Below, piece after piece: positions 1,127-57,000 of a DNA stretch of 64,000 nucleotides. Numbering within the stretch: position 1 is the stretch's first letter; each line of letters begins with the position of its first letter. The DNA comes from Bryoerythrophyllum caledonicum (lineage: Eukaryota > Streptophyta > Bryopsida > Pottiales > Pottiaceae): the NCBI GenBank assembly GCA_963971425.1, contig OZ020525.1, positions 124,001 through 188,000 of the forward strand, given 5' to 3'. The translations under genes were made by a program, and so were the position numbers. Under the pieces are notes generated by a model. It was not told the origin of the DNA and did not search any database. It saw only the letters and a list, made by a program, of their open reading frames with translations.

Positions 1127-1191
1127 CTGCATTACATTCACAATCAACTATCAGTGGGGACAAATTCTTATACATAAACGAGACACACGTT

Positions 1192-7349: not shown

Positions 7350-8004
7350 CCACCCTCGAAATCAAGGTCTAGCTCTGACCAATAGCGACCTCGGGATTTG
7401 CTTGTAGGCTATTTATAGTGTTATCTAGGGCAAACATGCCAATGTCAAATTGTATCATATCCGTATATAGCGTTTGTACATTGTATAGTTCCTGCGATGA
7501 ATGTGGATAGCCATGAGAGACAACGGAATTTTGCTCATCTAGAGCCATGCTTTCTATAGCCAGGCATCATGTGAAGTAGAGACGTCGAGTTACTTGATGA
7601 ATGTGAGGGTATTGTTGAAGTGGAGTAGAGTTTTGTCCATGGAAGTGGATAAGATGTTACGGTAGAGGTACCAGTTCAAGCTTAAATAAGCAGGTTATGA
7701 TATCAGAATGCAAGATTGAGTCATAAAAATATATTGTGTGGGATTTTAAATCATTTTAAATACTTGATATATTAAGATGTTACTATCTTAATTTCTCTAT
7801 ATCATTGGAAATTTCTCCCCATGAAAATATAGAGGTTAAAGTTTTAATATCTTCAAATATGAAAATATTTTTGGAAGTGCTTAAGGCTCTCTCATATTTG
7901 AAAGCAACAAATGGAGATCAACCTAAGTGATTTCTTTTTTTTTTAAGCTGATATAGATAAGACTTATGAATCGTCAAAGTAAATTATAATGGAAATGGCA
8001 TTAA

Positions 8005-8934: not shown

Positions 8935-8938
8935 TTAA

Positions 8939-19849: not shown

Positions 19850-19985
19850 TGGAAGAAAGTCTACCCTCAAGAGTGGGAAGTAGTTTCATACTTCTAGTTC
19901 CTTGTCTAGTGGACATGGTCTTAGTGGTCAAACAAACAGACACTTAATTCATGTCAGCCTCTTTTGAGGACCGGCCTTCTTTTGT
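19850..19985 (+). mobile_element. LINE 3' tail fragment
   Basis: Matches the 3' end of the complete LINE (49,190-49,317): agtctaccctcaagag, agtagtttcatact, then the terminal cassette ggacatggtcttagtgg...acagacactt with a degenerate stem-loop ending ccggccttctt. A heavily 5'-truncated insertion. Confidence 0.65.
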
Positions 19986-22900: not shown

Positions 22901-23410
22901 GACTCCTCTGTAAAAACCCCCCATCGAACCACATAGACCCAAATCTAACCATCACATTTATTGAGTTGAGATATTGCAACGATAGATTCTCTCCTAAAGC
23001 AATTACAAACAAAATAAACAAATACCAACAACTTATCAACAACATCAATGCACTCGGATGGAAAGTCAATCCACTCATCGTCATCATGGTAGGCGCCCGT
23101 GCCACCACCTTTATTTCATTAATGACAATCATTAAAGAGAAATTCAAAACATCCATCCAATCTATTAAAAACGCGTTCAACAACATAACACAATGGCAAT
23201 CCAACACGCTATGTCCATACTTCTACATAAAAGAAAAATTGAAAACAATCAACCCCTCCGGGAAGCTCAAAATAATTCATAAAATACTCTGACACTGTTT
23301 ACTTAAATGCCAACATCATTTGATTCTCCATGCCGAGTCCCATGTTTTTACGGTTACTTGTTTTTTGTTACATAGTGTCTACCCTTGAGAGGAGGAAGTA
23401 GTTCCATACT
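19990..23410 (+). pseudogene. Degenerate LINE ORF2 3' half, interrupted
   Basis: Follows the complete LINE ORF2 from the methyltransferase-like segment (RDKIFGSFGGAFEHKW, GNWYEN) through RNase H to about 20,865, then after a foreign insertion from about 22,165 (NIEGNKHVDKL, HAHATPYYFQKEEW) to the C-terminal nuclease-like segment (DILYVKG, FIELRYCNDRFSP, KINKYQQLI) and the 3' tail (tctacccttgagaggaggaagtagttcc). Many stops and frameshifts; for example the W of AIHWA is now TAG. The C-terminal domain is the best-preserved part (open 22,771-23,292). Confidence 0.75.
20866..22164. other. Unidentified 1.3-kb insertion in the LINE copy
   Basis: AT-rich sequence separating two parts of a LINE RNase H region. 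No coding potential, terminal repeats or target duplication that I could identify. Boundaries are set only by loss of LINE similarity. Confidence 0.4.
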
Positions 23411-35915: not shown

Positions 35916-36676
35916 CAAAACCATCATATACACTCCTAATCGTCAACAAGCACATCAAAGCGGTATGGAAAATCCGTAAACTAATAATATCCTTCAATAA
36001 ATAAGGGTGTTTATACATATGAACGCCGGAACATTTGACAACAAACTATAAGATAATACATTTCCTTCATGACTACTTCCATGCACATGTGGAACTCATA
36101 GATGTCACTGTAATGCCACATTTAAACCAGACATATTATGCGTCAAAGGAGTACCATACATAGACCCCCCACAAGACCACATAAATACAAACCTTTCTAT
36201 CCAATTTATTGAATTCAGATAGTGCAATGACAAATTTTCTCTAGAAACAATCGAAAACACAGTTAATAAATACCAACCACTTATTAATAACATTGCAGCC
36301 CTTGGATAGAAAGTTGACCCCCTTACTATCATTTCCGCTGAAACTAGAGCTACTACCTTTATTATCCCCTCTCTAAAAAGTCTCGAAAAAACATTCAATA
36401 TCTCCATTAATCCAATTAAAAAGACATTCATAAAAATCAACACCATTGCTATCCAACATGCAATGTCCATACTTCTACACAAACTAAAACTCGAAAATAA
36501 CCAACCTCTTCTAGTAATACATGATAAAACCCTGTAAAACCTCTTAAGAAACATCCATCTAATATTTGCAGATCACCTCTTGAAATCGAGCCCTGTGGCT
36601 CTTTTTGGTTTTTGGTTCTCGGTTAGTCGTTTCATAGTGTCTACCCTCAAGAAGAGAGAGTAGTTCCATACTAAGG
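35916..36676 (+). pseudogene. 5'-truncated, decayed LINE copy
   Basis: Aligns with the last 600 bases of ORF2 (from the sequence after the CCHC knuckle at about 48,420) and the 3' tail (catagtgtctaccctcaag, agtagttccatact). Many C-to-T and G-to-A changes create stops (TGG to TAG in GWKVDP, TGG to TGA in PWLLP). The complete LINE is inserted at or just beyond its 3' tail. Confidence 0.75.
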
Positions 36677-36687
36677 TAGAGGCATCC

Positions 36688-39095
36688 GCCACCCACAGGC
36701 ACGGGGGAGATGAACACTGAGTAGAGCTCCGCATTTCCTGGTGAGGGGAGAGGAGGGACTTAGATGCAAAACCCTAGATCACGCACAACAGGAGGTGGCT
36801 GGCCCTGTTGTTGAGCCTGCGTGAGTCTAAGTGGTTGGCATGTGGTTAGAAGTGGAACGCAGAGTATGTGTGTTGAGAAGGCTCATAATTCTTTAGATCT
36901 GGGGTTTGTGGATTGAGGGTGGAGAGGTGGTGGCAAGATCTTGCTGTGAGGAATCTGAAGCTAGGGACACTTGTGTTGGAGCAGAGATCTGGCCGTTTCA
37001 ATCTTACCCACAAGGTCACTCAATCTCAGATCGGAGAATAGGTTAACTGAATCCGCTTCCTACCACATACTCCCTCCTCCTCCCCGACCCAGGTGCACAA
37101 GCAAACAAGATTGACGACAAGACCGCCCCACCGTCGCCGCAAGGCATCAACACCGCACCACATCAGGCTACCTCTCACCTCCCTTACACTTTTTTGTCCT
37201 TTCCTTGCTTCACCACTGTTATCCACACATTGTCACCATGTTTTGTTAAGCACATATACACTTTACACGACAACTCTGACATCAATTGTTTGAGAGAGCT
37301 GTATACCAGATCTGAAGTTCAGCAGTACATAACAACCTCTGAAGTGGAGTTCAACATAACAAGTCTCAAAGATCTACCTCGAGACTGCACGCCGAAGCGC
37401 TGGATTTTTTTCTCAGATCTAGATCTAACTACGGAGAATCAGCAACCCTACAACACCAAACCGGAGCTTCTCCACGCGCACCCACAAACAATCTGCACCA
37501 CAAGCATAGCCGTACCAAGCATCAGCAGCAAAGTCAAGCAATTTGAAGGAGATTTGCGACCGAAGATCAGCAGGCAAGCAATCGCAGTTCATTGGCAAGG
37601 ACAACACGAACGTGAACAAACAAGGACAAGGTCAAATCAGGTGAGTACTATCGCTAAACCCTCGTCTTTCCGTAATCTCTTCCATAGTCCCTTCCCCCCC
37701 CGCAACAGGTGCCCCCTCTCTCCCACAGCTTGCAGCGTCCTCCCTTCCCTCCCTCTCCTCCAACCTATATGCAACCTAGCTCCCCCCGCAACAGGTTCCC
37801 CCTCCCCACACCCCAGCCAGCTCCCTACACTCTCTGTAAACCCCAGCCCTCGCAGACAAGAAGGAAGACAAGACACACAAGGAGGCAGACAGACCACGTA
37901 CACGGACTTCCAACGTCATAGACCACGCACACGGACCCCTGCGACACAGACGACAAAGGAGCAACAGGGACGAACACAAACAGGGAACAACAGAGACAAA
38001 CACGAACAAGCACAGAGAGCGAGGCAGACAAGACCCAGGAGCAAGAAACGAGTCAAGAACAGAGACAAACTCAATAAAGACGAGCAAGAAAAAGGACAAG
38101 GAACAAGGCAAGCACGCGCAAGGAGAACAGAAGAAGAGCACCATCAAGACCAGGCGTCGAGACGAGATACACACAAGGAGAAACGACACACACAGCGACT
38201 TGCGACACCTTCGAATTACCGACCTCCCCCCTACCAACCGACCTACTACCCACGACCCCCCGACCCTCCTGTCCCGACCCCTTTACTACCCCGACTCCCC
38301 CACTGTCCCGACTCCCCCACTGTCCCGACTCCCATACTGACCCGACCCCCCGACTCCCCCACTGACCGGACTCCCCTACTGTCCCGACCCCCCGACTCCC
38401 CCACTGTCCCGACTCCTATACGGACCCGACCCCCCGACTCCCCCACTGACCGGACTCCCTTACTGTCCCGACCCCCCGACTCCCCCACTGTCCCGACTCC
38501 CCAGCTAGCCCGACCCCCTAGCTGGCCCGACTCCCCCGACACCCCTACTAACCCGACTCTAGTACTGTCCCGACCCTACCCCTATCCCGACTCCCCCACT
38601 GTCCCGACTCCCCTGCTGCCCCCCTATCTCGACCCCCTGACCCGACCCCCCCTACTAAAACCTACGACCCCCAGACCCCAACGGTCCCCAACAGGCTGGC
38701 ATCATCCCACTTTTTCCAATCCCCCTTCCCTTGCGACCTCCCTACCTAAACCTCTACGACCTCCTCCTCCCCCTGCGACCTTCCATAAACACCCTAATCT
38801 CCTCTTACAACCTCCTTCTCCCTCAAGTTGGGACCTCCCCCTTCCTCTATTATTCCCCCTACTTCCTCCCATCACCCTCTCCCCAACCTCGCTCCCCTTA
38901 CACTCAACCCTCTACCTCACCACCACTAGTAGAGCCCGTCAAAATTGCATAAACCTTGGAAAACGGTGCCAATCCACTCCTCGCATAGCCATCGAAAAGA
39001 AGAATAGAGGAGTAGAAGTACATTGGAGGATCAATAGTGAAGAACCACTAGAAAACCTTAGTTCAGAAACTCCAAATCAACATCCTTCACCAACT
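36688..39095 (+). promoter_or_regulatory. LINE 5' region with Pro-coding minisatellite
   Basis: About 2.4 kb before the first in-frame ATG of ORF1. The ORF1 frame is open from 37,194 onward but without ATG. From about 38,230 to 38,650 short repeats of cgactcccccactgtc make the strand very C-rich and keep several frames open. It presumably includes the internal promoter expected for a LINE. No specific promoter element is identifiable. Confidence 0.45.
38230..38650 (+). repeat. C-rich minisatellite (gactcccccactgtccc)
   Basis: Irregular tandem array of 16-18-base units (ccgactcccccactgtc, ccgactcccctactg, ccgaccccc) in the LINE 5' region. If read in the ORF1 frame it gives Pro/Thr/Ser-rich sequence (PDSPTVPTP), but no ATG precedes it in frame. 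Confidence 0.75.
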
Positions 39096-40736
39096 ATGGA
39101 CGCCATGGACACCGAAAACCCCCACACAGGAGTTTTAAAGATCACAACAGCTGAAGATTTAGTATCAAAGGCAAGCGGAGGCCCAACCCCATCCAAGAAA
39201 GCTAGAGGTAGCTATTCCACCATTCAAGTCTCCATCCCTGACCTTTCATCATTTCGATTTTGGTTAGGCTTCCCCACTATGGAAAAACTTGCCATAGATG
39301 CAGGACAGGAGCCCCTATTTAGTGGAGAGAATGTTAGAGACATGATCACTCGTGGAGTACCCAAAGAAGAAGCAGAGGAGGCCATCAGCGCTAATGTGGC
39401 CTATCCTAGGATACCACAACTCTTATACTCTTCAATACGCAGCGACAACATCGAGGGCCAACACTACAACCTGACACAGGTACCCTTTGACATCCCTACA
39501 AGCCCTATCACTGGACTTTCCTACGACTTTCATGTGGCAATTCACTTCGAATTGCCACCACATCCCATGCACCATGACGATGTGAAGGGACTAGCCCTAG
39601 CAAGGCTTGAATACATGAAAATCCCCTTAGGCACCAACCTCATGGACCCTATCGCCGTTTTATGTAAGGGTGTCAAAAAAGAGGGACAAAGGGGTATATG
39701 GTCCGGTATCATCAAGTTACACCTCCTCAGGCCAGAGGTAGATGCTATTGCCCTTCTTCGAGGTACTAGATATTTTATCCTCCATCTGGACCCTTTAGGA
39801 CAAGCCTCCCTAGGGAAAGTGTGTAAAACTTTCCACGCAGTGGCCCGGAAGAACTTATCAGTGCGAATCAAGAGCGAGACCCTTAAAGGTATGGCTGCCC
39901 ACACCCTCTTCCAGGACGTGGTGACAAATAGTTTCTCGAGAAACTTGGAATTTGAGATTACAGACGTGCAGAAGGTACAAGAAGAGACACACGCCTTTAT
40001 AGTCGCCCCAACCCCACAACAGGCCAAGAAGTTTGAGCTTCACCAGATCACCACACACCACGAGATGATACCAGCACGTGCTAGTAGCTCTGGTGGCCTC
40101 TCCCCCGCAGATAGAGCCAAGAAGGACGCATTGACAGTTACCCTCTCCCAACTCCCCATTTTAATGAACGTGGCAGAAACCACGAATGCTATCCATAAAA
40201 CCTTTGAGGCCAAGAATGTCATCTCCCTATGGTTCCACAGGCAGCAGAGAGGAATGCACAATGGTAGTGCCAACGTGCAATTTCCTAACCCTATCATCTA
40301 CCGCCAGTTTCTACACAAGACATTCACTATAGGACGACATCAAGTGGAGATTTCTCCCCACCGCCGCAGCCTTGAAGGTGATGACCCACCCACCACCGCA
40401 CTACTGGAGAAGTGGGGCTTTAATGACATCAACAAAGCCCTCGTAAATACAGTAGAGTCCCTCCAAGTTACCCCTGCTCCTGCTAGTATTACCAGGTCAG
40501 AAATGACCTCCATTATAGATGCAGGCAACAAGAGACTGCGTCAGGAGCTCTCCACCCTCAGAGAGGACATCATCAAAGATACAAAGGCCTACACCGATAA
40601 CCGCACCAGTGAGTTACAGGCGAAGCTCTCAAATGTCGAACAACTGATGGCCTCTGCACTGATGGCCATGCAACAAATCACAGGATCGCGGCCTCCAACT
40701 ATTCCAGCCTTAGAAGACCACTCAAACGTGGATTGA
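39096..40736 (+). CDS. LINE ORF1 protein, RRM-like and coiled coil
   Basis: 546 codons from the first in-frame ATG (39,096) to TGA (40,734-40,736). The N-terminal part is soluble-looking, with FRFWLGFPTMEKLAIDAG. About residues 345-430 fit an RNA-recognition-motif fold: first strand LTVTLSQLP, helix ETTNAIHKTFEAKNV, strand ISLWFHR, RNP1-like GSANVQFPNPIIYRQFL, last strand QVEISPHR. The last 90 residues are predicted coiled coil (RLRQELSTLREDII, ELQAKLSNVEQLMASALMAM). ORF1 proteins of LINEs trimerise and chaperone RNA, and this combination is compatible. A stretch before the RRM (LLRGTRYFILHLDPLG) could be a second RRM. The stop overlaps the start of the ORF2 frame. Confidence 0.7.
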   Translation: MDAMDTENPHTGVLKITTAEDLVSKASGGPTPSKKARGSYSTIQVSIPDLSSFRFWLGFPTMEKLAIDAGQEPLFSGENVRDMITRGVPKEEAEEAISANVAYPRIPQLLYSSIRSDNIEGQHYNLTQVPFDIPTSPITGLSYDFHVAIHFELPPHPMHHDDVKGLALARLEYMKIPLGTNLMDPIAVLCKGVKKEGQRGIWSGIIKLHLLRPEVDAIALLRGTRYFILHLDPLGQASLGKVCKTFHAVARKNLSVRIKSETLKGMAAHTLFQDVVTNSFSRNLEFEITDVQKVQEETHAFIVAPTPQQAKKFELHQITTHHEMIPARASSSGGLSPADRAKKDALTVTLSQLPILMNVAETTNAIHKTFEAKNVISLWFHRQQRGMHNGSANVQFPNPIIYRQFLHKTFTIGRHQVEISPHRRSLEGDDPPTTALLEKWGFNDINKALVNTVESLQVTPAPASITRSEMTSIIDAGNKRLRQELSTLREDIIKDTKAYTDNRTSELQAKLSNVEQLMASALMAMQQITGSRPPTIPALEDHSNVD

Positions 40737-40891
40737 CCAAGGACTACAGTCGAAAAAATCACCAATGTGGCAACACATGGGTGAACAAGGTTGTCACCTC
40801 CCTCCCCTACATCTCCCAACTCTCTTCGTGCACTCACCTACTCATTGAAATCACTATCTCCCCTAGTATACTCTCCCCTTTACACTACAAT

Positions 40892-43800
40892 ATGATAGTT
40901 AATACCCCAATAGTTATGACACTTACACCCTCCACACCTCTCAAAATAGATATAGACTCCCAGAATCCCTACTCTTTCATTTATTTGCCATCAATAACGA
41001 TATATCATTCTACTCTTATAGTCACAGTACACTCTAGCCTCACCATAGTCTATACACCTTCTTCACTACCCACCTCCTATGCTAGACATACTATATACTT
41101 CTACTATCACTCATCCACAACTAAACACATGACTTGGAGACCACATGGTGATCACATGTATTGGCCTTGGGGAATTTTTCCACATATCTATAAACTTTGG
41201 AAATGCATATACCATTACGGTATGAATATCTCTTTGAAAAATACATATGGAATACACACACTCAACACTCATACACCCCTACTACATCCCTACATTACAA
41301 ACACTACTCACACAACGACTCATAACACATCAATCCTACTCCCACACACACCTCCAACCAATGTAAACACTCATCATACTACATACCCCTCTATGTACAC
41401 ACCTTCCACAACCACAAACAAAAAAACCGCCATCATTACATACTCTCCCCAAAAAACAAAAATAAATACATCCACACCCACACACATCCATGCACAAAAA
41501 TACATCAAAACAAACACACAATCATTTGCACACTTAAACACAATTACAAACACATACGAAAAATCCACAAATACATATGAACACACATCCACTCAAACAC
41601 ACCCATGCATCCAAACACACACACATAAACTCAAATATACACATACTACATACACACGCAAGCATATACACACAACTACCCATCCACACCCGCAGACAAA
41701 AACCCACTTATACACCACCGCAAAGACACACACAAAAAAATATCCAAACAAATATACACAAGCCCACACAAACACCATCAAAAATACACACCCGTATACA
41801 AAGCTCGAAATCACAAGAAAATACAAAACCACAACAAATTTCACAAACAAAAACATACACAAATACATAAACAAAAATACTACAACCATGAAAACAAAAA
41901 CTAAAAAATACCTAAAACACATACACAAAACAATAAAACTAAAACAACACATTAAACCCTCATATTACAAAACCCTATTACTACAAAGTGGAGATATAGA
42001 AACCAACCCAGGACCCATGCCTAACATACTAAAAACACATCCTACAACACATAAGAAGAACGCAAAAATTTATTTCATACCAAACTCCATAAAACTTCAA
42101 CCGGAATACAAACACATTTCTCAAACATTTGCCCCCCTTTTAAAACCCACACATACACTACATCAACTATATAACACAACACACCCAAATATTGCCCAAT
42201 ATATACTACAAAAAAATATGCATCCACCAACACATATTCTATATGCCCTAATAATCACCACTCACCCAAACATAGACGAATGTAACCATCTTTTAAATGT
42301 ACAAAACCATAATACAATTACATGGACTAACACACTATTACGAACCTTATCAAACTTACAAAATCCACCTGAAAGACATATTCATACACCACACCCTTAT
42401 ACAAAATTTCTCGAAGAGAACCAAAGTATCATAAAACATGGAAACTCAATACATGAAGAACTGTACGACTTTATACATAATCAAACCATACCGCCATCTA
42501 ACATAATAATAAAACAAAAATTCCCCTACCTCCCTAACAAACTTATTGATGAATCACTAAAATGTTTCGACCCCATACCTGAATATACCCATCCGCCCCC
42601 TCCACCTTCCTACCTTCCTCCACAACACCATAATAACAGTTCAAACGCCGAAAACACAAACATAATTACATGGAATGCTTCATCCCTTAATACTGCTCTT
42701 CCTAGCTTGCAAACCTTAGTCACATACACAGACACACCACCGGCCATAATAGTTATACAAGAAACAAAAACATCCACCACAAAATCCACAAAATATATAC
42801 AAAATATATTTCAAAATTATAAACTCATCTTCAACAATACACATGCACTTACTAGATGCATTCAACAACGGAGACCATACACACCGGGCCGCGGTGGCCT
42901 CCTTACATTAATACACAAAAAATATACATTCCCAGGCAACATCAATAAAATCCCTACCCCAATGCACATATCACCGTACATTCAAATAATTAAAATCACT
43001 AATCACCCACTACAACCGTGGTTAATCTTTCACATGTATATGCCATCCCATCCCGAAGATACTAGATTTCTCTTAGATATACAAAACACTATTACATCCC
43101 ATATTAATAATCATCCTAATCATACATACTTATTATGTGGAGACTTCAATAGAGACATAGCGCTAATTGGCCGCCAAAATGGAAACCATCACACCCCCCC
43201 TCAAAACATTGATTACCAATGGCGCCGCTTCACAGAAAACTTAAACTTCACTTACATCAATACCAATACACAATTCTCTAGACAAGGTGGCTACAATTAT
43301 AGTGATTGGAGTCTAATAGATGGATTCTATATAAATACAAACAACAATACACAATACACCTCCACAACAAACAAAGATATTATTCTCAACTCGGACCACT
43401 CACCCATACAGTTGCACATCCCAAATAACACACTAATTAGTAGAACTCCTACAATCCCAAACAAAGACACTATACGCATACTCAACCCCATCCCAAAAAC
43501 CAAGATAGAAAAATTCAACACAAAATTTTTCGAAGAAAATTCTGTACAAATAGACTCTCTCATCAACACTCTTGAAAATAATAGTCAATTAACACAAGCA
43601 CAATGGCAAGAAGCATGCCACTCTCTAGACAAACTCATCAATAAAATATCTGATACACTAGAACAAACTTGTAGAGCACACCCCATACCCCAAATGACAA
43701 ATAGATCCTCCCAACAAGGCGGGTATCTACCCCGCAAACTTTCTAAAACGTGGAAACAACACTTAACCACATACCATACCATACGTAAAACCATTAGAAT

Positions 43801-46800
43801 TGTAAAAAACAACCCCCAATGGCGTAACCACCCCATACACAACGAACTACTAACTATACAACACATCCAAATCCCTATCCCGCCGCCTCCGGACTTTCCC
43901 CACGATACATGGATAAAAGATATCGCGATAATTGCAAAAAATGCCAACATACAAGCCAGGAAAATAATCACAAAATACACAAAAGAAAACATTAAAAAAG
44001 CCATATCAAAATACAGACAACTATACGAAATCAGCCCCAAAAAAATTAACAAAAAAGTCTTCAAAAACCTTGAATCCCCACCAATGGATTGTATCAAAAA
44101 TCAATATAATAATATTCTAACCAGCCCCGAAGACATTGCGAATGAAATATTCAACCAACAAACAAAAACCAATAGACCAACAGTACCAACATGTAATTAT
44201 CAGCCACAACATACAATAGAATGCACATGTGCAATACGCCAATACCCTTGGCACGACCTGGACGGATATACCCTTGACAAACGAGGCGAACCAGAAATTC
44301 CACTACATAAATACCTCAACAGAGCCACATACGACACATGCCTTCAAAATCTTGGAAACAATAAAGCCCCAGGCCCAGACCGCATACCAAACTCAATACT
44401 CAAAAACATGCCTCCAAGATTTCACAAGCTATTATTTCTATTCTTCTCCCACTGCTATAAACAAAAACAGATACCAAACTCATGGAAATTAAGTACAACA
44501 ATTCTACTATACAAAAAAGGCGACCCGTCCATACTACCCAACCATAGACCAATAGCACTAGCTAACACAATATACAAACTCTTTACCAGTACACTCACCT
44601 CCATACTATCCTCATACGGCGAAAAATTCAAAATCCTACATGATAGTCAAGAAGGATTTAGAGCAGAGAGAAGTACCGCACGACAAATACAAACTATAAT
44701 AGCCGCACTAGAAGACGCAAAGTTTACTAACCAAGATATATACATACTATACATGGACTTCAAAAATGCCTTTGGTTCAATTGACCATGCCCGACTTTTA
44801 GCAATAATGATGGACCTTGGTTACCCAAAAGATGCAACTACACTTGTTGGAAACATCTATTCTAAATCATTTACATGTTATACCGGTGAACACTTTGGGA
44901 AAACAAAACCTATACCCATCCAAAGAGGAACTATACAAGGGGATACCCTTAGCCCATACCTATTCATTATATTTCTAGAACCACTACTCAGATGGCTCGA
45001 AAGAGGAAATTACGGATACACTTTTGGCACATCACAGGTCATAATAAACTCTGCCGCATATGCGGATGACCTAGCCACCATAACTAACAAAATCAAATCA
45101 ATCCAAATACAACTAAATAAAATTGATAGATATTGTAAATGGGCCGGTATGGACGTAGGTGTCCCAAAATGTGCCGCTACCGGATGCCCAAACAAATCCA
45201 AATTGAATCCTACCACTTTCAAAGCCCTAATGCAAGCCTCGAACATCAATTACCGCAATCAACCGATCCCCATACTACACCAAAATGAACCATACATATA
45301 CTTAGGCACAAACCTTGTTCCCTCACTAAAATGGAAAATCCAAATCCACACCACAACGACGAAACTCATCAAACAATGCAAAGAACTAACAACATGCCCG
45401 GCCACCATGAAACAAAAAATAAAAATGGTTGATACCGTATTACGCCCAGGTGTGGCATACAGTTTCTACGGTGTACCATACTCTATGCCAGCTATCAAAA
45501 AACTTGACAAAAAAATAATAGCCATACAAAAAACCATATGTGGATTACCAAAATGTATGTCAAATGCAATAACCCAACTACCACATAACCTATTTGGACT
45601 TGAAGCCTTCTCCCTCAAAAATGCTTACCTCCGATGTATAGGCGAACAACTGCAAAATGCTTTAAACGATAAAGGGAGACTTGGGAAAATATATAATGGA
45701 TTAACTCACTATGTTCTTGCCCAATATGGTGGCGCTGAAAACATACCGAGAATTAAAAAAAGTGACTGCATAAGATCACCAATAACACGAACATTCTTCT
45801 TATTAAAATATGTAGCTAAAGCCCACCTTAAAAGTACGCTCCCGAACTTCCTCACTAATCCTACAACACTAGAAATACTATGGCGCCAAGAAACATTAAA
45901 TCATAACACACTCAATGCCCAACTCTCCCAAAAGCTTCTACAAAAACTCCTCTCAAAAAATATTTTTGAGCTAAACCAAATTACCTTACCCAACGGTACA
46001 CACATCATGAACGATGAGGACTTCAAAACCTACCACTTCACCCCATCTAAACTAATAAAGAGTGCCCTAAGTGTTGCTAAACAACTATTTTGCCACCTAA
46101 CATGCCCCACTATATGTCATACCCCTTGCAACATACACCCATACTCTCATACACTTAAAGATCCATTCATCACCCTCAACGATAACATCATCCCAAGAAA
46201 TATTCCCACACCAACCAATCCCCCTAACCCTCCACATATATACCACCCCCGCCCCCCAACATACATCCCCAAAAACCCTACCACATACCCCATTAATAAT
46301 ATCATAAACCATAAACATATTCAACACACAGACACAAATAACATACAAAATACCTACACAAAATATCTATGCCAATGGCAACATAATGATAATACATACA
46401 ATAAATGGCTCCCCCAAAGAGACCTTTTTCCACGGCATGACACCAATACCTCCACACATAACATTGAAAAATTAAAACAATACTACCAAAAGATCCAAAA
46501 TAAAATATACTCAGATATCATCCTTGCCCACCACCCCCAAGAACAATTCTCAGACTCAAGGTCCGTAACACCACCCATAATTATCCCACTCTTAAACATC
46601 TACACAACAGAATGCAACCCCGAAAATGATATCCTTACATCCTCAAACACAATTCAAATAGATAACAATCATGCACATCTATTCGAAGAAAACGGCCGAC
46701 ATTTACACACCATCCCCGTTACCCGACTCCAATGGCTATGGAATCAATATAATACCAAATTACAAACTCCTACAAACATCGAACCAACGACCCAACCCTT

Positions 46801-49042
46801 TGAAACCGAACTAATATGGCTCTACCAAAGGTATAAATACCGAATACCAAAAACTGACCCCCTCAAAAATGCCCAATACACAATACCCACTCTCATTTTA
46901 GACTCACTGATCTCATCCTTTAATATCGAGCAATCATACTTCTCTTCCCCAGTCACATGTTCTACCAAACTAAAAAAATTCTACTCACCGCATGAAAGAG
47001 ACAAAATATTCGGATCCCTAGGAAAGGCCTTTGACTACAAATGGACCGGTAATGGCATAGCCCACCCCCACAACGAGAAGGACATGGATCAAGCCATACA
47101 TTGGGCTAGACTTGCCGCCAAACACGATCCAAATAACACAAAAACAATCATCATCGCACCGAACAGTAATTGGTACCAAAACAACAACCAACATCCAAAT
47201 CCATTCCCAGATTCCCATATCATTGCACTATTCGAAGCCGACACAATACCATACGAAGAACCTACTATTCCACCCGAGCTAAAAAAACCCCGAATAGAGC
47301 CATCTACATTACAAATACTATGCGTCCACCATCAAAATCAAACCCTTGGCTCCCTAGAACAACTTGCGGAACTTACCTCCGTAACAAACAATCTAGGCAT
47401 ACACCGACTATACACAAAACTGGCCCCACCAACACCTATACAAACCCCTGTAAACAAAAGTAAAAACTGGTCAAAACTAAACTATGTCAACAACACATTA
47501 AACTACTCCGTCATACCTCCCCCTCTTCCAGACTACCAAATCCATACTACACCAAAATTTAACCCCGCACACAGTTATTACACCGACGGCTCCTTCAAAC
47601 CACCAGAACAAATTAGCCCGGGCTCTTGGCGCAGAGAAAAAGCTGGCTACGGCATATATAATTTTATCAAAGAAATTAAACTAGCCAAAAGACTTCATGG
47701 ACTACAAAATATTCTCAGAGCAGAACTCATGGCCATCCACAAAACACTACAAATCATCACAACAAAATACAATGATGAACCCGCACATATATTCACCGAT
47801 TGTATAAATGCACTCTACCTACTTAACACTCAAATAACACACCCTACCCTTCACAATAGCCACCCCGACCAAACCATATTAACATCAATGGTCCAAATGT
47901 TACAAAACCGTACACAAATCACAACCCTCCACAAAGTAAGAGCCCATGCTAACATTGATGGCAATGAACAAGCAGACAAACTAGCAAAAGAAGGCCGAGA
48001 AAAAACACACAAAAACGCCACAGACCCACACGAACATGCCCATGCCACCCCATACTACTTTCAAAAAGAAGATTGGCCTTCCAAAGAAGATACCCCCGAC
48101 AAAGGCCCAATTAGATTTTTGGGCAAATATCTCAAAAAACAAGACCTCTACAACAACCTTGACACAATTTCAGAAAATATTCCTAACATAGAAAAATGGA
48201 CTAACAATAACGACATAGACAATGAACTCTCTACAAATTTTTGGAAAAACCCCATCATCCCAGACTCGCAAATAACATGCCTCATCAAATTCCGTACGGG
48301 TCAATATATGGGAAACGCTCGCAAACAACTCTTCTTTGGAATAGAAAGATTCCCATCCATAACATGCCCCATATGCCCCTCAACGGACCCCGACACATGG
48401 CTCCATGTCCTACTCAAATGCCAAAACCACCACATACACTCTCTAATTGTTAAAAGACATAATAAAGCGGTATGGGAAGTCCGAAAACTAATCACCTCCT
48501 ACAATAAATCGAGATGTTTTATATTAATGAACGCCGGTACTTTTAATAACAATCCACAAGAAAATACGGTCCCCCCTTGGCTACTCCCATGCTCATGCAT
48601 GACCCAAAGATGTCATTGCAACGCTAGGCTCAAACCGGATATCCTCTGCGTTAAAGGTTTACCATATAATGACCCACCACCCGATAACATCAACCAAGAA
48701 TACACCATTCAATTCATTGAATTCACGTATTGCAACGATAGATTTTCCCCGGAAACAATCCAAAATAAAATAGATAAATACCAACCCCTTATTGACGACA
48801 TCATCGCCCTCGGATGGAAGGTCGACCCCCTTATTGTAATCACATCCGGCGCTCGTGCCACCACGTTTATCCCATCTATGAAATCTCTTGAAGATACCTT
48901 CAAAATACCCATTGAAACAATTAAAACCTCCTTTAAAAACATTAACACCATTGCTATTCAATATGCCATGTCCATTCTCCTACATAAACGCAAAATCGAA
49001 AACAATCAAGCCCTCCCCGATACACAAGACCTCCCCCCTTAA
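40892..49042 (+). CDS. LINE ORF2: 2A, APE, RT, RNase H, CCHC, nuclease-like
   Basis: The frame is open 40,733-49,042; the first in-frame ATG is 40,892 and a later candidate is 41,888. Numbering from 40,733, the order is: His/Thr-rich low-complexity region to 385; 2A motif ending at G427/P428; APE endonuclease (N648 in WNAS, E677 in QETK, D804 in GDFN, H889 in SDHSP); RT (D1342 in DFKNAF, D1445/D1446 in YADD, with RGTIQGDTLSP); a segment at about 2068-2150 resembling PCIF1-type methyltransferases; RNase H (D2285, E2331, D2356, D2415, complete); CCHC knuckle C2545-C2548-H2558-C2563; then KPD2636 and E2663-F-T with a KY motif, like R2-type endonucleases. It nicks the target, primes and copies the element RNA. 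ORF2 is in the -1 frame relative to ORF1, overlapping by four bases; reinitiation or frameshifting is possible. No disabling mutation is visible. Confidence 0.85.
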   Translation: MIVNTPIVMTLTPSTPLKIDIDSQNPYSFIYLPSITIYHSTLIVTVHSSLTIVYTPSSLPTSYARHTIYFYYHSSTTKHMTWRPHGDHMYWPWGIFPHIYKLWKCIYHYGMNISLKNTYGIHTLNTHTPLLHPYITNTTHTTTHNTSILLPHTPPTNVNTHHTTYPSMYTPSTTTNKKTAIITYSPQKTKINTSTPTHIHAQKYIKTNTQSFAHLNTITNTYEKSTNTYEHTSTQTHPCIQTHTHKLKYTHTTYTRKHIHTTTHPHPQTKTHLYTTAKTHTKKYPNKYTQAHTNTIKNTHPYTKLEITRKYKTTTNFTNKNIHKYINKNTTTMKTKTKKYLKHIHKTIKLKQHIKPSYYKTLLLQSGDIETNPGPMPNILKTHPTTHKKNAKIYFIPNSIKLQPEYKHISQTFAPLLKPTHTLHQLYNTTHPNIAQYILQKNMHPPTHILYALIITTHPNIDECNHLLNVQNHNTITWTNTLLRTLSNLQNPPERHIHTPHPYTKFLEENQSIIKHGNSIHEELYDFIHNQTIPPSNIIIKQKFPYLPNKLIDESLKCFDPIPEYTHPPPPPSYLPPQHHNNSSNAENTNIITWNASSLNTALPSLQTLVTYTDTPPAIIVIQETKTSTTKSTKYIQNIFQNYKLIFNNTHALTRCIQQRRPYTPGRGGLLTLIHKKYTFPGNINKIPTPMHISPYIQIIKITNHPLQPWLIFHMYMPSHPEDTRFLLDIQNTITSHINNHPNHTYLLCGDFNRDIALIGRQNGNHHTPPQNIDYQWRRFTENLNFTYINTNTQFSRQGGYNYSDWSLIDGFYINTNNNTQYTSTTNKDIILNSDHSPIQLHIPNNTLISRTPTIPNKDTIRILNPIPKTKIEKFNTKFFEENSVQIDSLINTLENNSQLTQAQWQEACHSLDKLINKISDTLEQTCRAHPIPQMTNRSSQQGGYLPRKLSKTWKQHLTTYHTIRKTIRIVKNNPQWRNHPIHNELLTIQHIQIPIPPPPDFPHDTWIKDIAIIAKNANIQARKIITKYTKENIKKAISKYRQLYEISPKKINKKVFKNLESPPMDCIKNQYNNILTSPEDIANEIFNQQTKTNRPTVPTCNYQPQHTIECTCAIRQYPWHDLDGYTLDKRGEPEIPLHKYLNRATYDTCLQNLGNNKAPGPDRIPNSILKNMPPRFHKLLFLFFSHCYKQKQIPNSWKLSTTILLYKKGDPSILPNHRPIALANTIYKLFTSTLTSILSSYGEKFKILHDSQEGFRAERSTARQIQTIIAALEDAKFTNQDIYILYMDFKNAFGSIDHARLLAIMMDLGYPKDATTLVGNIYSKSFTCYTGEHFGKTKPIPIQRGTIQGDTLSPYLFIIFLEPLLRWLERGNYGYTFGTSQVIINSAAYADDLATITNKIKSIQIQLNKIDRYCKWAGMDVGVPKCAATGCPNKSKLNPTTFKALMQASNINYRNQPIPILHQNEPYIYLGTNLVPSLKWKIQIHTTTTKLIKQCKELTTCPATMKQKIKMVDTVLRPGVAYSFYGVPYSMPAIKKLDKKIIAIQKTICGLPKCMSNAITQLPHNLFGLEAFSLKNAYLRCIGEQLQNALNDKGRLGKIYNGLTHYVLAQYGGAENIPRIKKSDCIRSPITRTFFLLKYVAKAHLKSTLPNFLTNPTTLEILWRQETLNHNTLNAQLSQKLLQKLLSKNIFELNQITLPNGTHIMNDEDFKTYHFTPSKLIKSALSVAKQLFCHLTCPTICHTPCNIHPYSHTLKDPFITLNDNIIPRNIPTPTNPPNPPHIYHPRPPTYIPKNPTTYPINNIINHKHIQHTDTNNIQNTYTKYLCQWQHNDNTYNKWLPQRDLFPRHDTNTSTHNIEKLKQYYQKIQNKIYSDIILAHHPQEQFSDSRSVTPPIIIPLLNIYTTECNPENDILTSSNTIQIDNNHAHLFEENGRHLHTIPVTRLQWLWNQYNTKLQTPTNIEPTTQPFETELIWLYQRYKYRIPKTDPLKNAQYTIPTLILDSLISSFNIEQSYFSSPVTCSTKLKKFYSPHERDKIFGSLGKAFDYKWTGNGIAHPHNEKDMDQAIHWARLAAKHDPNNTKTIIIAPNSNWYQNNNQHPNPFPDSHIIALFEADTIPYEEPTIPPELKKPRIEPSTLQILCVHHQNQTLGSLEQLAELTSVTNNLGIHRLYTKLAPPTPIQTPVNKSKNWSKLNYVNNTLNYSVIPPPLPDYQIHTTPKFNPAHSYYTDGSFKPPEQISPGSWRREKAGYGIYNFIKEIKLAKRLHGLQNILRAELMAIHKTLQIITTKYNDEPAHIFTDCINALYLLNTQITHPTLHNSHPDQTILTSMVQMLQNRTQITTLHKVRAHANIDGNEQADKLAKEGREKTHKNATDPHEHAHATPYYFQKEDWPSKEDTPDKGPIRFLGKYLKKQDLYNNLDTISENIPNIEKWTNNNDIDNELSTNFWKNPIIPDSQITCLIKFRTGQYMGNARKQLFFGIERFPSITCPICPSTDPDTWLHVLLKCQNHHIHSLIVKRHNKAVWEVRKLITSYNKSRCFILMNAGTFNNNPQENTVPPWLLPCSCMTQRCHCNARLKPDILCVKGLPYNDPPPDNINQEYTIQFIEFTYCNDRFSPETIQNKIDKYQPLIDDIIALGWKVDPLIVITSGARATTFIPSMKSLEDTFKIPIETIKTSFKNINTIAIQYAMSILLHKRKIENNQALPDTQDLPP
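41984..42016 (+). other. 2A translational recoding motif
   Basis: Encodes QSGDIETNPGP, matching the D-x-E-x-N-P-G-P consensus of 2A peptides, at which the ribosome releases the chain after Gly (codon 42,011) and continues at Pro (42,014). The preceding YYKTLLLQ fits the hydrophobic helix usual upstream. If translation starts at 41,888 the leader would be 42 residues; from 40,892 it would be 374 residues. 2A motifs are known from L1Tc of trypanosomes and several animal APE-type LINEs. Confidence 0.85.
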
Positions 49043-49226
49043 ATTTTTCCCCCGCCTTGATTTTTCATGACTAGTTGGTTTTGAGGTTTCTTGACGAATT
49101 GCTTGATTGGTGGTTCGTTTGTTGCCTTGTCGGTTAGTTAGTGGCTCGTCAGTTGGTTTGCGGTTCCTTGGCTACTTGTTACATAGTGTCTACCCTCGAG
49201 AGAGGGAAGTAGTTCCAGTTTACTAA

Positions 49227-49317
49227 TTCCTTGTCCAGTGGGCATGGTCTTAGTAGTGGAACGAACAGACACTTTATTCACGCCGGTTCCCTTCGGGAAC
49301 CGGCGTTCTTCTCTCTC
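49227..49317 (+). other. LINE 3'-terminal stem-loop cassette
   Basis: Contains gtggaacgaacagacactttattca and then the perfect hairpin CGCCGGTTCCC-TTC-GGGAACCGGCG (49,281-49,305, 11-bp stem), ending in a short pyrimidine tail at the target duplication. LINE reverse transcriptases commonly recognise a 3' hairpin, so this is the likely template recognition element. Related cassettes are at 19,893, 26,545 and 50,318. Confidence 0.7.
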
Positions 49318-50317
49318 TAGAGGCATCCAATTCCGATCGGTCACCCAATCCAATCAATAGAATATGCATGGCATGGTGCATGAAAATGGCAAATGCTTGG
49401 AATGGTGCATGAAGTGACCCAAAACCAATAACTCAAAATCTGAAAACACCAGTCATTATCAGCATTGGGTCATGATGTGTGCAATTTTGGATTGCTCCAT
49501 TTCAATTGAACTCTGATTGGTGGCATTGCCTCGAGAGTCGAACAAGGCCAATCGGCATTGGATACCCTCCATGAGTTGGTTATCCATGGCATGTCTTCTC
49601 TCTTTTACTCACTCTCACTTGTTGGCATTGGACAAAGGAGGGCATTAAATCTCACCTATTCTACAGTTTGATTATGGACTCCTATGGTTTGTGGGCTTTT
49701 AAATTCTATATCAATTCCAAATCTTTGTGATTAAATTTGAAAAAATATTTGTTGAGTTTCATTCCTAATTCCCCATCTCTCTGCACAAATATTTTTGACA
49801 TACAATAGAGTTTTCCTGAAAGTCTGAATTTTACAGGGTGGCTACCTTGTGTCAGTCAAAAAGACCCGGTGCAACATCCTTTAAGGACCTTGTGTGTTTC
49901 TCTATCCATCAAAGCAGGGTGAGATTTAAATACGGCAATATTTGCAAGGTGAAAGTTGTCACCCTCCATATTTTATGGGCCACGCGCATGGAACAAGCTA
50001 ATGAAACCAAATTAGTAATTTGGAGTCACCAATGCCACCTTGCATCATTGTTTGGACGGTGACTGTGCCTAGATGATTAACCTTGTAGCATGTTGGTTGG
50101 CTGACAAAGGACCATAATTCATAAAATAAACCCCAAAGTTAACCAAAGCACCATGTTTCTCAAAAGCAAATGGACTTTCAGGTGTACAACCCCTATTAGC
50201 GTTTTGGAGTGACAGTCAGGGTTTAAACCCTGAGTACTTTCAGGAAAACTCTAGTATCACTTGAGTCCCCAACTGGCTTCGGTGATCGAAACTGGGTGCC
50301 TCTACCTTATTAAACCT
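49318..50317. other. Flank of the LINE, no gene seen
   Basis: Repeat-like sequence with recurrent gcattgg and tgcatgaa strings and a perfect 16-base palindrome (cagggtttaaaccctg, about 50,217). One 74-codon frame (49,838-50,062) has no recognisable feature. Confidence 0.35.
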
Positions 50318-50405
50318 CTGTGCGATGGACATGGATTTAGTTGTGGAACGAACATACACTATATTCACTCCGCCCCCCCTTGGAGACCGGAGTCCTACTT
50401 CTTCC
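50318..50405 (+). repeat. LINE-tail-like cassette
   Basis: ggacatggatttagttgtggaacgaacatacactatattc, then a partly paired ctccg...cggag stem and ttcttccgg. It shares the terminal cassette of the LINE but follows unrelated sequence, so it may be the end of a different LINE or of a SINE using the same tail. Confidence 0.6.
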
Positions 50406-52072: not shown

Positions 52073-53522
52073 ATGGCGGCAGTTACGTCTTCGCATGAAG
52101 TCGAGTCCAATTTCGATGGTGGTTCTCGTTTCGTAACTTCCAACCCTTACGATCCAAGACATTCGAGTGTGTTTTCCGGCAATGGCGGCTCTGGTTTCGT
52201 GCCTTCCAACACCATCGATCGAAAACACTCGAGTGTGTTTTCTGGTGATGGCGGTTCTGGTTTCGTTACTTCCAACCCCCTGGACCGAAGACATTCGAGT
52301 GTGTTTACCGGTAATGGCGGGGTGAGTTGGACTTCCAATCCTTTGCACGTAGGGTCTCGCCAGAACCAGCAATCGCCTTTAGGCCATCAGCAGTCTACGT
52401 CGTGGAGCCAGCAGTCTTGGGATCAGATGGCGGACACGATTCCGCGCCAGAACCAGCGAACGCCTATGAGCCATCAGAATTTCACATCGTGGAGCCAGCA
52501 GCCGTGGGATCAGGTGGCGGACAGGATTCCGAGCCAGAACCAGCAAACGCATTTAGGCCATCAGCAGTCTTCGTCGTGGACCCAGCAGTCGTGGAATCAG
52601 ATGCCGGACATGAAGACGTCGTCCGATCAACTCATGGAGTTGAAAAAGCACAAGTTGGAAAATACTCACCCCACGTCGATGTGCCACCTACCCCATATTG
52701 GAGACGATCTGGTAAGTTATCAATGCGCCAGAGGATCAACTTCATCCTTTGATTTGAGATGAATGCATTGCAAAACTGTTGCATGGGTTTGACCTTCTCT
52801 GAGCATGTGGACTATGTTTGGCAGATTAGGCAGTTTGAGACCGAATTTAAGGTTGTTGAGAAGGTGGCTGAGATGAAAGAGGTGGAGGAGACGCGTCAGA
52901 AACAGATTGTTTCTTGGGAAAGACGGCTTGTCCCGGAATTGAAGACTGTGATTGTGGACGACGAGGTGGAGCGTTTTGAGCTTGTGCCTGTGGTGAAGTA
53001 TAGAATCATCATGAAACCGGAGACTTACTACCAGTAATGGCCATCCTACCCCATCCACCCGTACACTATTGCCTTCCTGTCTGAAACATTTTGGAGTTCT
53101 CAGATTCTTCAGGTTATTCTGACTCTGGTGATAAATGTGTAGTGTGGTAGAGGAAGAGATCGAGATTCCGGTGACGGAGCAGGTGCCGTCTGACAGAGAA
53201 AAGTGGGTGACTAGGAAGGAGCCCAGAATTGTAGCCGAAGAGGTTGAAACGCTGTTCAAATTTCCTGTTGTAAAGCAAGTGCCCAAGACGAGGACAAAGC
53301 AAGTGATTAGTACTGAAGAGTAAGATTATCAGAAACTTCCACTAATCAAGCACTAGTTCAGCTTCAACCCTCGTCTACCAGGAAGTCTAAGTTTTCTGAC
53401 AACAATTATTAACTGCTTCAATGTGGGCTTCATTTCTGTGCAGATTCGATGATATCGTGGTAATGGAGCATGAAAATCCTGGACAACATAACAATCTCAA
53501 TTCGCATATCTCACCAGAATAA
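52073..53522 (+). CDS. VPV-3: complete four-exon VPV-family gene
   Basis: Exons 52,073-52,711, 52,825-53,033, 53,143-53,319 and 53,444-53,522 give 367 residues and TAA; phases 0, 2, 2 agree with VPV-1. Donors are GTAAGT, GTAATG and GTAAGA. Exon 1 has repeats of the type SGFVTSNPLDRRHSSVF (about residues 15-85), then Gln/Ser/Trp-rich repeats (GHQQSTSWSQQSWDQM, about 100-185). Exons 2-3 carry the charged VPx region: RRLVPELKTVIVDDEVE, RFELVPVVKY, EIEIPVTEQVP, FKFPVVKQVPKTRTKQV. This alternation resembles alveolin/articulin membrane-skeleton proteins; no catalytic motif or signal peptide is visible. Exons 3-4 are identical to VPV-2 in the inverted arm. Function is inferred from composition only; the gene model is well supported. 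Confidence 0.65.
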
Positions 53523-54924
53523 CGGACAGGAGTCGAGTGCTATTTCACCTTCTGTTTGTAATGGCAGCTACAACTGAAGCACCTCCTGAAGTGGTTTTAG
53601 GTTACAATTCCAACTTGTCTAGTAGGTTTCTTACTCTCGGAGCTTGAGCTTTCCTTTGGACTTGTTTGGATTATAGGGTGATCAGTACCTCTCCAGATAC
53701 GAAGCTTTTATGGGCAGATTAATCAGTTGAAGTGCTTCGATCATTGCATCGTATGTTTATATTATATTCTGGAATATGTATTTACTTTGGAGTAGTACCA
53801 AGTGTACAAGAGCAGCTTGTGGGTTTTCAAGGGTGAAGGGATTTTGATCAGAAGCTTTTACTAATATAATCTATGATCTGTGAACGAAGCTTTATTCATA
53901 TGCAGCAAAGTTGCAACTGTAGAGTACATCATGTCCTCTCTGATCTAGTTATCAACTTCCTACGTCTTCACTAAGCATGCTTGCTTACATCTTAGCTACG
54001 TTGACGATCATTGATACAAAAAGATACTTCATAAGACACATCAACGATCAATATGTACTGTAGCTAACTTGAAGCTCAACCAACTGAAATCCAACAGACA
54101 AGAAGTTCAACCATTAGGATGACTTTAACTTCAAGTTTTCACCTTCTAACATTTACATCTTAGTGTCAAGCACTGTCTATTGCTGGTGATCCATGATGGA
54201 ATAAACAGTTACAGTATGTTGGAAGTTCATGACCTTTTCCCCCAGATTAATCTGTTGACGCTGTTCATTTCTAGCTGCAGCTTTGAGAAATCTCTTTCCG
54301 AATCATGTGCCAGCTGTAGAGAAACACGTATCTGCCATCCTTTATTAGAAATCCCGCAGAAGTACTGAGCGTGCTTGGCATCACTTCAAAAGCCTTCCAT
54401 GAACACCATCTCTTGACTCAGCATTAACTACAAATCGAGGTGTACTGTTACGAATTCTTGGTAATAAGGCTAAGAAGTTGCAAGCAGACTGCTCAATTTC
54501 TCAATGTTGATGAGTTTCAAGGTCCAAATTGAAGTCACTTGAAAACGGAGTCAAATTGAAGTTCCTTGATTATGCTACGGTCCACCTCAACATTTCATGA
54601 CCGATTTGCAAACTTTCTCACCACGTTGATTCATTCCGAACCTCACGGTTAAGTTCAACATAAAAAGATCTCAAGTTTGTTCACATTATCGTCCCAGAAC
54701 CTGGTGTTACTGACCGGTGTGCCTCAAAATTGACCAACATTGGAATTGTGCAAGGTAAAGGAACCCAACATGGCGGGTCGTCTGAACTGGTTCCTGCTAC
54801 CGTAATCACCCAAAACATGTTGAGACAGATTCACCTAAATCTATCGCATCCGTAACCTTCCATCCTAGGCTTAGTTGCATGAGAATCTCATGTCCACTTT
54901 GAGTGTTCCCGCTGTCCACATTAA

Positions 54925-55854
54925 CCCCTAAAGTACCGTGACAGTTTCACACCAAAAACACTTCAAAATAGTTGGATTCTAGTGCAATGACTAAAGAAGG
55001 AAACAAAAACTTTGATTTCTAGTTTTGACCGTAGGATCTCAAATAAGACTTATTCAGTAACATACTCACAAAATTTCATAGACTTTGACCGCATGGATTG
55101 AAAGATTATAGTGATTAAAGTCAAACAAATGGTTCATTTTCTTCCCTGCGTTCAGTGGATCAGCAAACTTTGACTTCTCTCGGTGTCAGATTTTTGCACT
55201 ACATAAGGTCTAAATCCATTACCATTGTGTTGAGCATGATGTTAGTTCCTAGCACACCAAATTTTAGAGGTAGGAGAGGGGTGTAGCATATTCAAAACAA
55301 CTGTGCAAGGAGTGGAGGTTCAAAAATTGCCAAATTGCATTTTTATTTTTTGTGAAATCAATATGTTTTAGATTGATAATCCGAAAGGTCAATAGGAAGA
55401 TTTACACTACATATTGATGTGGGGAAAAAAAAGTGAAAAATATGAAGATCTCTAAGTTTTATGTGGAAAAGAAGAGTTTTTTTGGTACCTTGCCTACCAA
55501 TGTGTGAAAATGTTTGACTTGGGTTAATGTGTTGTTTTTCACTAAAGACAAGAACTTTTTGGACAATATGAAGGGAAAAAATATTACTTGCTAGTATTGA
55601 AAATCTCACATTAAATAGAGTGTCCTAGCAAAAGTTTTTGGAGGTGCCCAAAGTGCCCACACTCTCCATTTGAAATTTGAAACCCTGTAACTTTTTCATT
55701 ATATGTCGGGTTTAGTGGAAAATTGTTCTCCCACTGAGGTCTTAGTAATGCCCTTCTACAGTAAAAATTTCATAGTGGAATGTTGGAAATTGACACCATA
55801 GGAACTTGATCGAACTTTCAAAAAGCCCATTTTTGACACTTGGTCCTTTAGGGG
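54925..55854. mobile_element. piggyBac-like TTAA MITE, copy D
   Basis: Mirror copy of 8,005-8,934 in the right arm, flanked by TTAA at 54,921-54,924 and 55,855-55,858. Carried along by the duplication, not an independent insertion. Confidence 0.75.
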
Positions 55855-56441
55855 TTAATGCCATTTCCATTATAATTTACTTTGACGATTCATAAGTCTT
55901 ATCTATATCAGCTTAAAAAAAAAAGAAATCACTTAGGTTGATCTCCATTTGTTGCTTTCAAATATGAGAGAGCCTTAAGCACTTCCAAAAATATTTTCAT
56001 ATTTGAAGATATTAAAACTTTAACCTCTATATTTTCATGGGGAGAAATTTCCAATGATATAGAGAAATTAAGATAGTAACATCTTAATATATCAAGTATT
56101 TAAAATGATTTAAAATCCCACACAATATATTTTTATGACTCAATCTTGCATTCTGATATCATAACCTGCTTATTTAAGCTTGAACTGGTACCTCTACCGT
56201 AACATCTTATCCACTTCCATGGACAAAACTCTACTCCACTTCAACAATACCCTCACATTCATCAAGTAACTCGACGTCTCTACTTCACATGATGCCTGGC
56301 TATAGAAAGCATGGCTCTAGATGAGCAAAATTCCGTTGTCTCTCATGGCTATCCACATTCATCGCAGGAACTATACAATGTACAAACGCTATATACGGAT
56401 ATGATACAATTTGACATTGGCATGTTTGCCCTAGATAACAC

Positions 56442-56449
56442 TATAAATA
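56442..56449 (+). promoter_or_regulatory. TATA-box-like site
   Basis: TATAAATA in context ctataaatagcctac, shortly before the outer breakpoint of the right arm, mirrored at 7,410-7,417. It would fit a plant core promoter, but no gene follows within the homologous segment, so it may be a cut-off promoter. Confidence 0.25.
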
Positions 56450-56470
56450 GCCTACAAGCAAATCCCGAGG

Positions 56471-57000
56471 TTTCTTTGGAACATTGGGTTGTTGCCCGAC
56501 TAAGACCCTCCCTTGGATATTCCGCCCGCAGTCATCTAATTATGTCGGCTCCTATTCGTTCCCGTCCGCTCCGATTTGATCATGTCCGCTCTGTTCTGCC
56601 GCTGTTGGGACTCCGCCCATTGACTCTTTCTCGTCCAATTGTTCCTGTGCAATCTTGTCCGCTTTCTTTTGCCACCCTCTACCCTTCTGCTCTTTTTATC
56701 GCTTGCTCCCATTTGTTTAAATCTGCCCATGTTTGCTACCATTACATATATGCACGTTGCTTAATTTGGCAATCATAGGTTGGTTTACCTTATGTGAATG
56801 AATTCATTTCACGAGATTGTCATTGCAATTATCGTGGGTTGTTTTAGCTTACAAGTTAATAGAATGATGTAGAAGTTTTTAAAAGTTTTTTGTTATCCTT
56901 GGAAGTTCCTAGATGCTTTTTTAGAAGCATTAGGTGGCCTTGGAAATTTCCAGGAGAAGCTTCTAGATTCTTACATAGAAGTCAACTTCAATCTCCTTTA
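56471..57000. other. Unique flank plus LTR-like block
   Basis: No supported gene. The open frame 56,311-56,778 crosses the duplication breakpoint and is probably spurious. At 56,870-56,990 sequence with repeated ggaagttcct/gaagcttct resembles the LTR-like block at 17.2 kb and lies at the 3' end of the minus-strand gypsy fragment. Confidence 0.35.

Follow-up and report, generated by a model that had tools for sequence, protein, structure and literature searches.

A probable StopGo/2A signal within ORF2 of a young, apparently Dualen/RandI-type LINE of a streptophyte

The 64,000-nt stretch of DNA analysed here (the window) contains, at positions 41984-42016 of the + strand, the sequence QSGDIETNPGP in frame with the 2769-aa ORF2 (40733-49042) of a LINE. 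We regard this as most likely a working StopGo/2A signal (probability about 0.85), which would free the ORF2 protein of a young element, seemingly of the Dualen/RandI type, from its leader. Ribosomes would first translate a leader that is long, changes fast and shares the ORF2 frame, release it at NPG/P and then continue into ORF2; the endonuclease/RT protein would start with Pro-Met-Pro-Asn whatever the leader. From sequence, we infer ribosome skipping at the window motif, and a constant ORF2 N-terminus would be its benefit.

The LINE and the motif in its ORF2

The element is an insertion of about 12.6 kb (36688-49317, + strand, as are all features below unless stated), delimited by blastn matches of other copies to the window at 99.7-100% and bounded by an 11-bp target-site duplication (TAGAGGCATCC; left copy 36677-36687, right copy 49318-49328). 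The 11-bp sequence occurs twice in the 64 kb, once at each end of the element (mean of 0.02 in shuffled sequences, none of which contained two). Two contigs, C8 and C1, carry copies whose match to the window runs from 36707 to 49314-49316, with 99.7-100% identity as compared at both ends; the first 19 nt of the insertion are not common to these copies. Of the copies scored in a search with ORF2 residues 436-760, 18 are at 100% identity, the window's own included, and 15 of the 18 have the same 2809-aa open frame. The LINE is complete and young.

ORF1 (39096-40736; 546 aa from the ATG at 39096) has an end that looks coiled-coil-like by eye and no Pfam match; it gave 79 scored matches among 3750 candidates in its own genome and recurs ahead of ORF2. 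Over 124 nt (40613-40736) it is overlapped by the ORF2 frame, which lies -1 to ORF1. A translated low-complexity leader in frame with ORF2 follows (40737-41992; first in-frame ATG at 40892). Downstream of the 2A comes a conserved ORF2 region (42017-42652; MPNILK...YFIPN...), recognized from the relatives P0029 and P0027 and from dN/dS, and then an APE-like endonuclease region (42653-43522), defined by 15 BLAST matches among fetched relatives (residues 641-930), several of them listed with PF03372; no Pfam APE model matched in the window ORF2. Pfam places a reverse transcriptase (RVT_1, E 5e-26) at 44522-45307, a PCIF1-like domain (PCIF1_WW, E 7e-10, residues 2011-2145) at 46763-47167 and an RNase H (E 1.6e-11) at 47573-47998; among solved structures, R2 proteins match the RT best. 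The C-terminal region (48023-49039; RLKPD...EFTYCND) gave 22 BLAST matches among fetched relatives (residues 2431-2769), and a PD...E motif, which we take to be that of a restriction-like endonuclease (RLE), is aligned in most of the printed rows. At the place in the PCIF1-like domain presumably corresponding to NPPF, as assigned from human PCIF1, the window copy reads AHPHN and relatives read NPEY, HPPF and others; from AHPHN, the methyltransferase of the window copy may be inactive. A search of solved structures with this region gave nothing under E 0.1.

Several other features accompany the element. Upstream of ORF1, the 5' part of the LINE holds tandem repeats of 17 nt (38247-38672). The 3'-end sequence (49180-49316) recurs beside truncated copies at 36595-36674, 23347-23406 and 19859-19981, and also at 50326-50404, perhaps through SINE-like use. 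The segments 20012-23273 and 35936-36525 are 5'-truncated, decayed relics of related LINE copies.

With its three preceding Leu codons, the putative signal reads LLLQSGDIETNPGP (41975-42016; ORF2 residues 415-428). The core D codon begins at 41993, and the break is predicted at 42013/42014, where the Gly codon 42011-42013 meets the Pro codon 42014-42016. DIETNPGP agrees with both core patterns, D(V/I)ExNPGP and (D/G/C/N)(V/I)ExNPGP, and the upstream LLLQSG, with Gly at p11 and Asp at p12, fits the LLLLSG-like context class of viral StopGo, as far as the available text of PMC12846837 describes it. Core octapeptide, both residues and L-rich context are thus shared with signals that, there, lie in viral genomes. 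Other copies have LLLQSG, LLLLGG, LIILCG and similar contexts, near the same class. The frame is open on both sides of the 2A, for 419 codons before it and for 2349 from the D codon on. An earlier note on this DNA had held that QSGDIETNPGP satisfies the conserved positions of 2A, which the reading frame and the fit of core and context bear out, and that it lies between a His/Thr-rich leader and the APE endonuclease: a His/Thr-rich stretch indeed precedes it, and the APE-like region starts about 220 residues after it. Motif position and retention in copies also favor its proposal that the 2A would split ORF2 in a green-lineage LINE. A protein search with 65 residues around the 2A gave five candidates, none under E 10, and a scan of viral contigs found no relative.

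Retention of the motif among copies

The pattern D-x-E-x-N-P-G-P, which the earlier note had proposed to look for in other copies, occurs 884+846 times in the 437,360,962-base host genome, against 3+1 in the reversed control; exact DIETNPGP occurs 756+723 times (1479 sites), against 0+0. A chance origin of the motif was rejected on these counts. The first 20 of 100 listed motif places were fetched at 10 kb, and all 20 proved to be this LINE, with MPN after the motif. Having been selected by the motif, these copies are uninformative on its loss. Most are decayed; three (L012, L023, L025) have a downstream frame with 2118 aa or more open. Ahead of the 2A, the length of the open stretch varies between 21 codons and at least 500.

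Retention was assessed in copies found through the sequence after the 2A. For family 1, the search with residues 436-760 gave 123 scored matches out of 4586 first-look candidates; of the 105 with less than 100% identity, one, which began at query residue 2, was set aside, and a sample of 60 from the other 104 (every second, plus a further 20) was fetched at the calculated 2A position. The strict form D(V/I)ExNPGP is kept in 51 of these 60, namely in 21/21 with an open frame of at least 2000 aa (one of which has an internal TGA) against 30/39 with shorter ones (Fisher p 0.021). The nine losses read NPRP (three), NLGP (two), DRET, NPGS, a stop at E and a stop at G. For family 2 (123 scored matches of 4403; 40 fetched, contig C1 left out), the long set comprised the first 18 by rank that had 2400 aa or more of open frame, were free of internal stops and differed in score from the copy before, and the short set the first 22 with an open frame under 1000 aa. 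Here the strict 2A is kept in 34/40 copies, with 18/18 in the long set against 16/22 in the short set (p 0.024). Among the six losses is one GIETNPGP, which the accessible part of PMC12846837 calls functional.

The earlier note had looked to loss of the motif, or of its G-P pair, in most full-length members as evidence against a 2A; all 39 long-open copies sampled in the two families keep the strict motif, against 46/61 broken copies (p 0.0003, an indicative value because the copies share descent). Coordinates were cross-checked by eye against the listed places on C1. A motif site lies at the expected spot for five of the six family 1 matches in range, the sixth (15990219) having an open frame of 687 aa; for family 2, query aside, this holds for two of the four matches in range, and the two without a site (24093873 and 10288068) have open frames of 488 and 734 aa.

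Conservation appears to act on the peptide, not on the DNA. NPGP is written mostly AAC CCG GGA CCC in family 1 and AAC CCC GGC CCA in the 34 family 2 copies keeping the 2A; several core codons vary synonymously, while GAA for E is nearly fixed in both samples. Nine subfamily representatives, compared in pairs, have a mean identity of 0.12-0.19 between -40 and -12, 0.36 at -11 to -7, 0.52 at -6 to -1, 0.95 in the 2A core, 0.81 over the next four residues, and 0.53 and 0.75 further on. Most of the nine were found by the motif, which makes the core value partly high by construction; the rise before the core is not.

Relatives of the element and its host

The domain set and the green-algal company in an RT tree suggest that the LINE is of the Dualen/RandI type. 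For the tree, 85 of 127 RT stretches found were used (P0027 and P0029 were too short). The window element forms a group with P0023-P0026 (100/100), and the 64-row clade around this group (100/98) includes elements of Parachlorella, Haematococcus, Pleodorina and Nannochloris; these groupings are to be read with the odd composition of P0025 and P0026 and the long branches among outer rows in mind. R2-type rows fall outside the clade, and no curated Dualen sequence is in the tree. With the Dualen/RandI group, as presented in the available parts of PMC4640811 and PMC8226300, the element shares an RNase H and seems to share an RT grouping with green-algal elements and APE-like plus RLE-like regions; it differs in having a 2A and a long leader and in showing no OTU match in the Pfam scan of the window copy.

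The 2A core was sought in 141 proteins (the 120 best of 182, an earlier set and the window) and occurs in six: P0001, P0011, P0015, P0017, P0029 and P0083. P0029 reads LALLQCGDIEPNPGPMPD and P0027 reads GDIQPNPGP; P0002, P0003, P0004 and P0005 have no NPGP. P0083, a LINE protein of Nannochloris sp. 'desiccata', carries LLLLQQGIEPNPGP near its N-terminus, a second green-lineage 2A. It is the only one with the core among 23 related proteins listed with PF03372, whose N-termini may be partial. The RT of the window element is far from those of the 2A LINEs P0011, P0015 and P0017, which bear no clade names, P0011 being long-branched. 2A sequences reportedly occur in APE-type non-LTR retrotransposons, namely L1Tc/Ingi of trypanosomes and CR1, L2, Rex1 and Crack of animals. 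Like them, the window element has the 2A in frame inside the LINE protein; unlike them, it combines a streptophyte host, an RT that groups with green-algal elements, a separate ORF1 and, ahead of the 2A, a leader that is long and changes fast.

A literature search, judged from titles and abstract openings, found no report of a 2A in a green-lineage LINE. In the available part of PMC12846837, StopGo is described as largely confined to viruses, and no natural use of it by plant viruses was found; the available part of PMC11512398 places 2A-like sequences in viruses, non-LTR retrotransposons and NLR proteins and notes that 2A is active in plant and algal cells.

The host was called probably green-lineage in the earlier note, and rbcL and a nuclear PsaD exon now support a streptophyte, moss-like by the latter. 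For rbcL on contig C821, the best score belongs to 9chz, followed by pea, rice and other land plants, with Chlamydomonas lower (1072, 1054, 1041, 1022 bits). For the PsaD exon, on C7, the top row is 9vfj (a 698-aa chain with three matched stretches) and the next are 7ksq, 8htu and 6l35 (183-185 bits), with seed-plant entries at about 150-155 and Chlamydomonas at about 113. We take 7ksq, 8htu and 6l35 to be Physcomitrium entries, and the source organisms of the other rbcL and PsaD matches in the PDB are likewise as we presume them. As separate observations, the genome contains two different rbcL sequences (C821 and C590) and a third match, on C894, with the score of that on C590, perhaps from a second plastid source; the window has a 3483-nt inverted repeat, 100% complementary, with its arms (7388-10870 and 52989-56471) 42 kb apart, and, at 2329-3018, a 30-nt tandem repeat coding on the - strand for HSGLYGNVAD-like units. 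Scans for tRNAs and Rfam families gave nothing informative.

The leader and alternative readings

From the ORF1 stop to the 2A (40739-41983), the ORF2 frame has no stop in 415 codons, against 21 and 13 in the other + frames and a mean of 18 or 11 in Markov controls, where 0/3000 sequences were open. The copy L029, picked for its longest listed open frame (3757 aa), has no stop in 1407 leader codons, against 131 and 132 in the other + frames and a Markov mean of 113 or 87. On these stop counts, a chance open frame was rejected. For L012, L025 and L023 the count covered just the open stretches (500, 500 and 315 codons), where zero stops hold by definition; the other + frames have 17-50.

The leader changes faster than the body between the window and its close copies L090-L092 (dN/dS 0.48-0.56, against 0.12-0.15 over the 340 codons that begin at the 2A). 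Comparisons within L090-L092, which involve few changes, show no clear difference between leader and body (0.21 and 0.22; 0.30 and 0.22). Toward L093-L095, leader identity drops to 0.32-0.41 with the body at 0.83; dN/dS of such diverged leaders was not relied on (dS often above 0.8). Leader length varies as well. Measured from ORF1 to the D codon in 12 hand-picked ORF1-ORF2 pairs, the spacing is 1115-1265 nt for eight pairs, 1932 for one and 3975-3980 for three, and 15 of 17 family 2 copies with equal body score have open frames of 2557-2906 aa, a spread that we attribute to leaders of different length. L029 and L095 contain a duplicated upstream 2A module that reads DMETNPRP, with the ORF2-proximal module intact; L029 (leader 172-4392) has, further upstream, ELEINPGP, with NPGP kept, and L094 has three shorter stretches resembling module remnants.

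As to how ribosomes would enter the leader, reinitiation after ORF1 seems likelier than a -1 shift. In both the window and L029, ORF2 is read in the -1 frame relative to ORF1, as it is, by distances, in 10 of the 12 pairs; no XXXYYYZ slip site was found in the ORF1/ORF2 overlaps of the window (124 nt) and L029 (175 nt). The first in-frame ATG lies 155 nt (window) and 89 nt (L029) after the ORF1 stop, and the ATG at 40892 is kept in L090-L092. In-frame fusion of ORF1 through the 2A, sought in L029, was rejected: the ORF1-like sequence runs out in a different frame, at a stop codon (344-346). A tblastn search of L029 with the window ORF1 gave no significant match.

The persistence of the motif in three quarters of the broken copies (46/61) is a counterpoint to a working 2A. 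Three alternatives were weighed. Internal initiation at the ATG at 42017, directly after NPGP, would make the 2A-like peptide a relic. This ATG is found in 60/60 family 1 copies and in 33/34 family 2 copies keeping the 2A; the reading is nonetheless quite improbable, as it leaves unexplained both the frames open over 415 (window) and 1407 (L029) leader codons and the retention of NPGP in long-open copies, and the -3 base is C wherever NPGP is kept, because a Pro codon precedes the ATG. DIETNPGP might instead be a structural element of the ORF2 protein, with no skipping: it is kept along with the ORF2 body, and it could be kept as part of a folded protein. Its agreement with the viral signal, L-rich context included, and the distant chlorophyte element P0083, where the sequence after LLLLQQGIEPNPGP looks unrelated by eye, render this still less probable. 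The least probable of the three is N-terminal dual targeting, raised in the earlier note, in which translation would start at 41888 (context ACAACC ATG) and the resulting leader, some 35 residues ahead of the core, would send an uncut fraction elsewhere, as 2A signals of sea urchin NLR proteins do, also in plant cells, in the accessible part of PMC4981915: the motif does come soon after that ATG in the window copy, but L090-L092 (about 94-95% body identity) have Lys at this codon, and no Met lies within 60 codons of the 2A in L093-L095, so that the idea is refuted as a family trait. The frame is moreover open far upstream, and the leader sequence is poorly conserved between subfamilies. The sea urchin proteins, too, have a 2A after an N-terminal stretch, which is a short signal sequence according to the same part of PMC4981915; the leader of the window LINE is long, with neither a start nor a sequence common to subfamilies.

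Beyond the working 2A itself, we would give even odds to a broader proposal, that a group of green-lineage LINEs uses StopGo as an N-terminal reset. The last 2A would free every ORF2 protein, so that a very long leader (about 370 to 1400 codons) could be carried and rapidly rebuilt, growing through repeats and through 2A modules that were duplicated and later decayed. With the core also present in the chlorophyte Nannochloris element, natural StopGo use in plants would be old.

LINEs of trypanosomes and animals are among the other users of StopGo. If the present reading is true, the plant lineage and a dual-endonuclease type of LINE would join them, with a natural use of StopGo in plants for which our search of titles and abstract openings found no description. 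With roughly 1500 exact sites, retained in long-open copies, such a genome would offer a large stock of natural variants suited to plant ribosomes. The signal would also account for a retrotransposon bearing a translated leader that is large and changing while its enzyme takes no harm.
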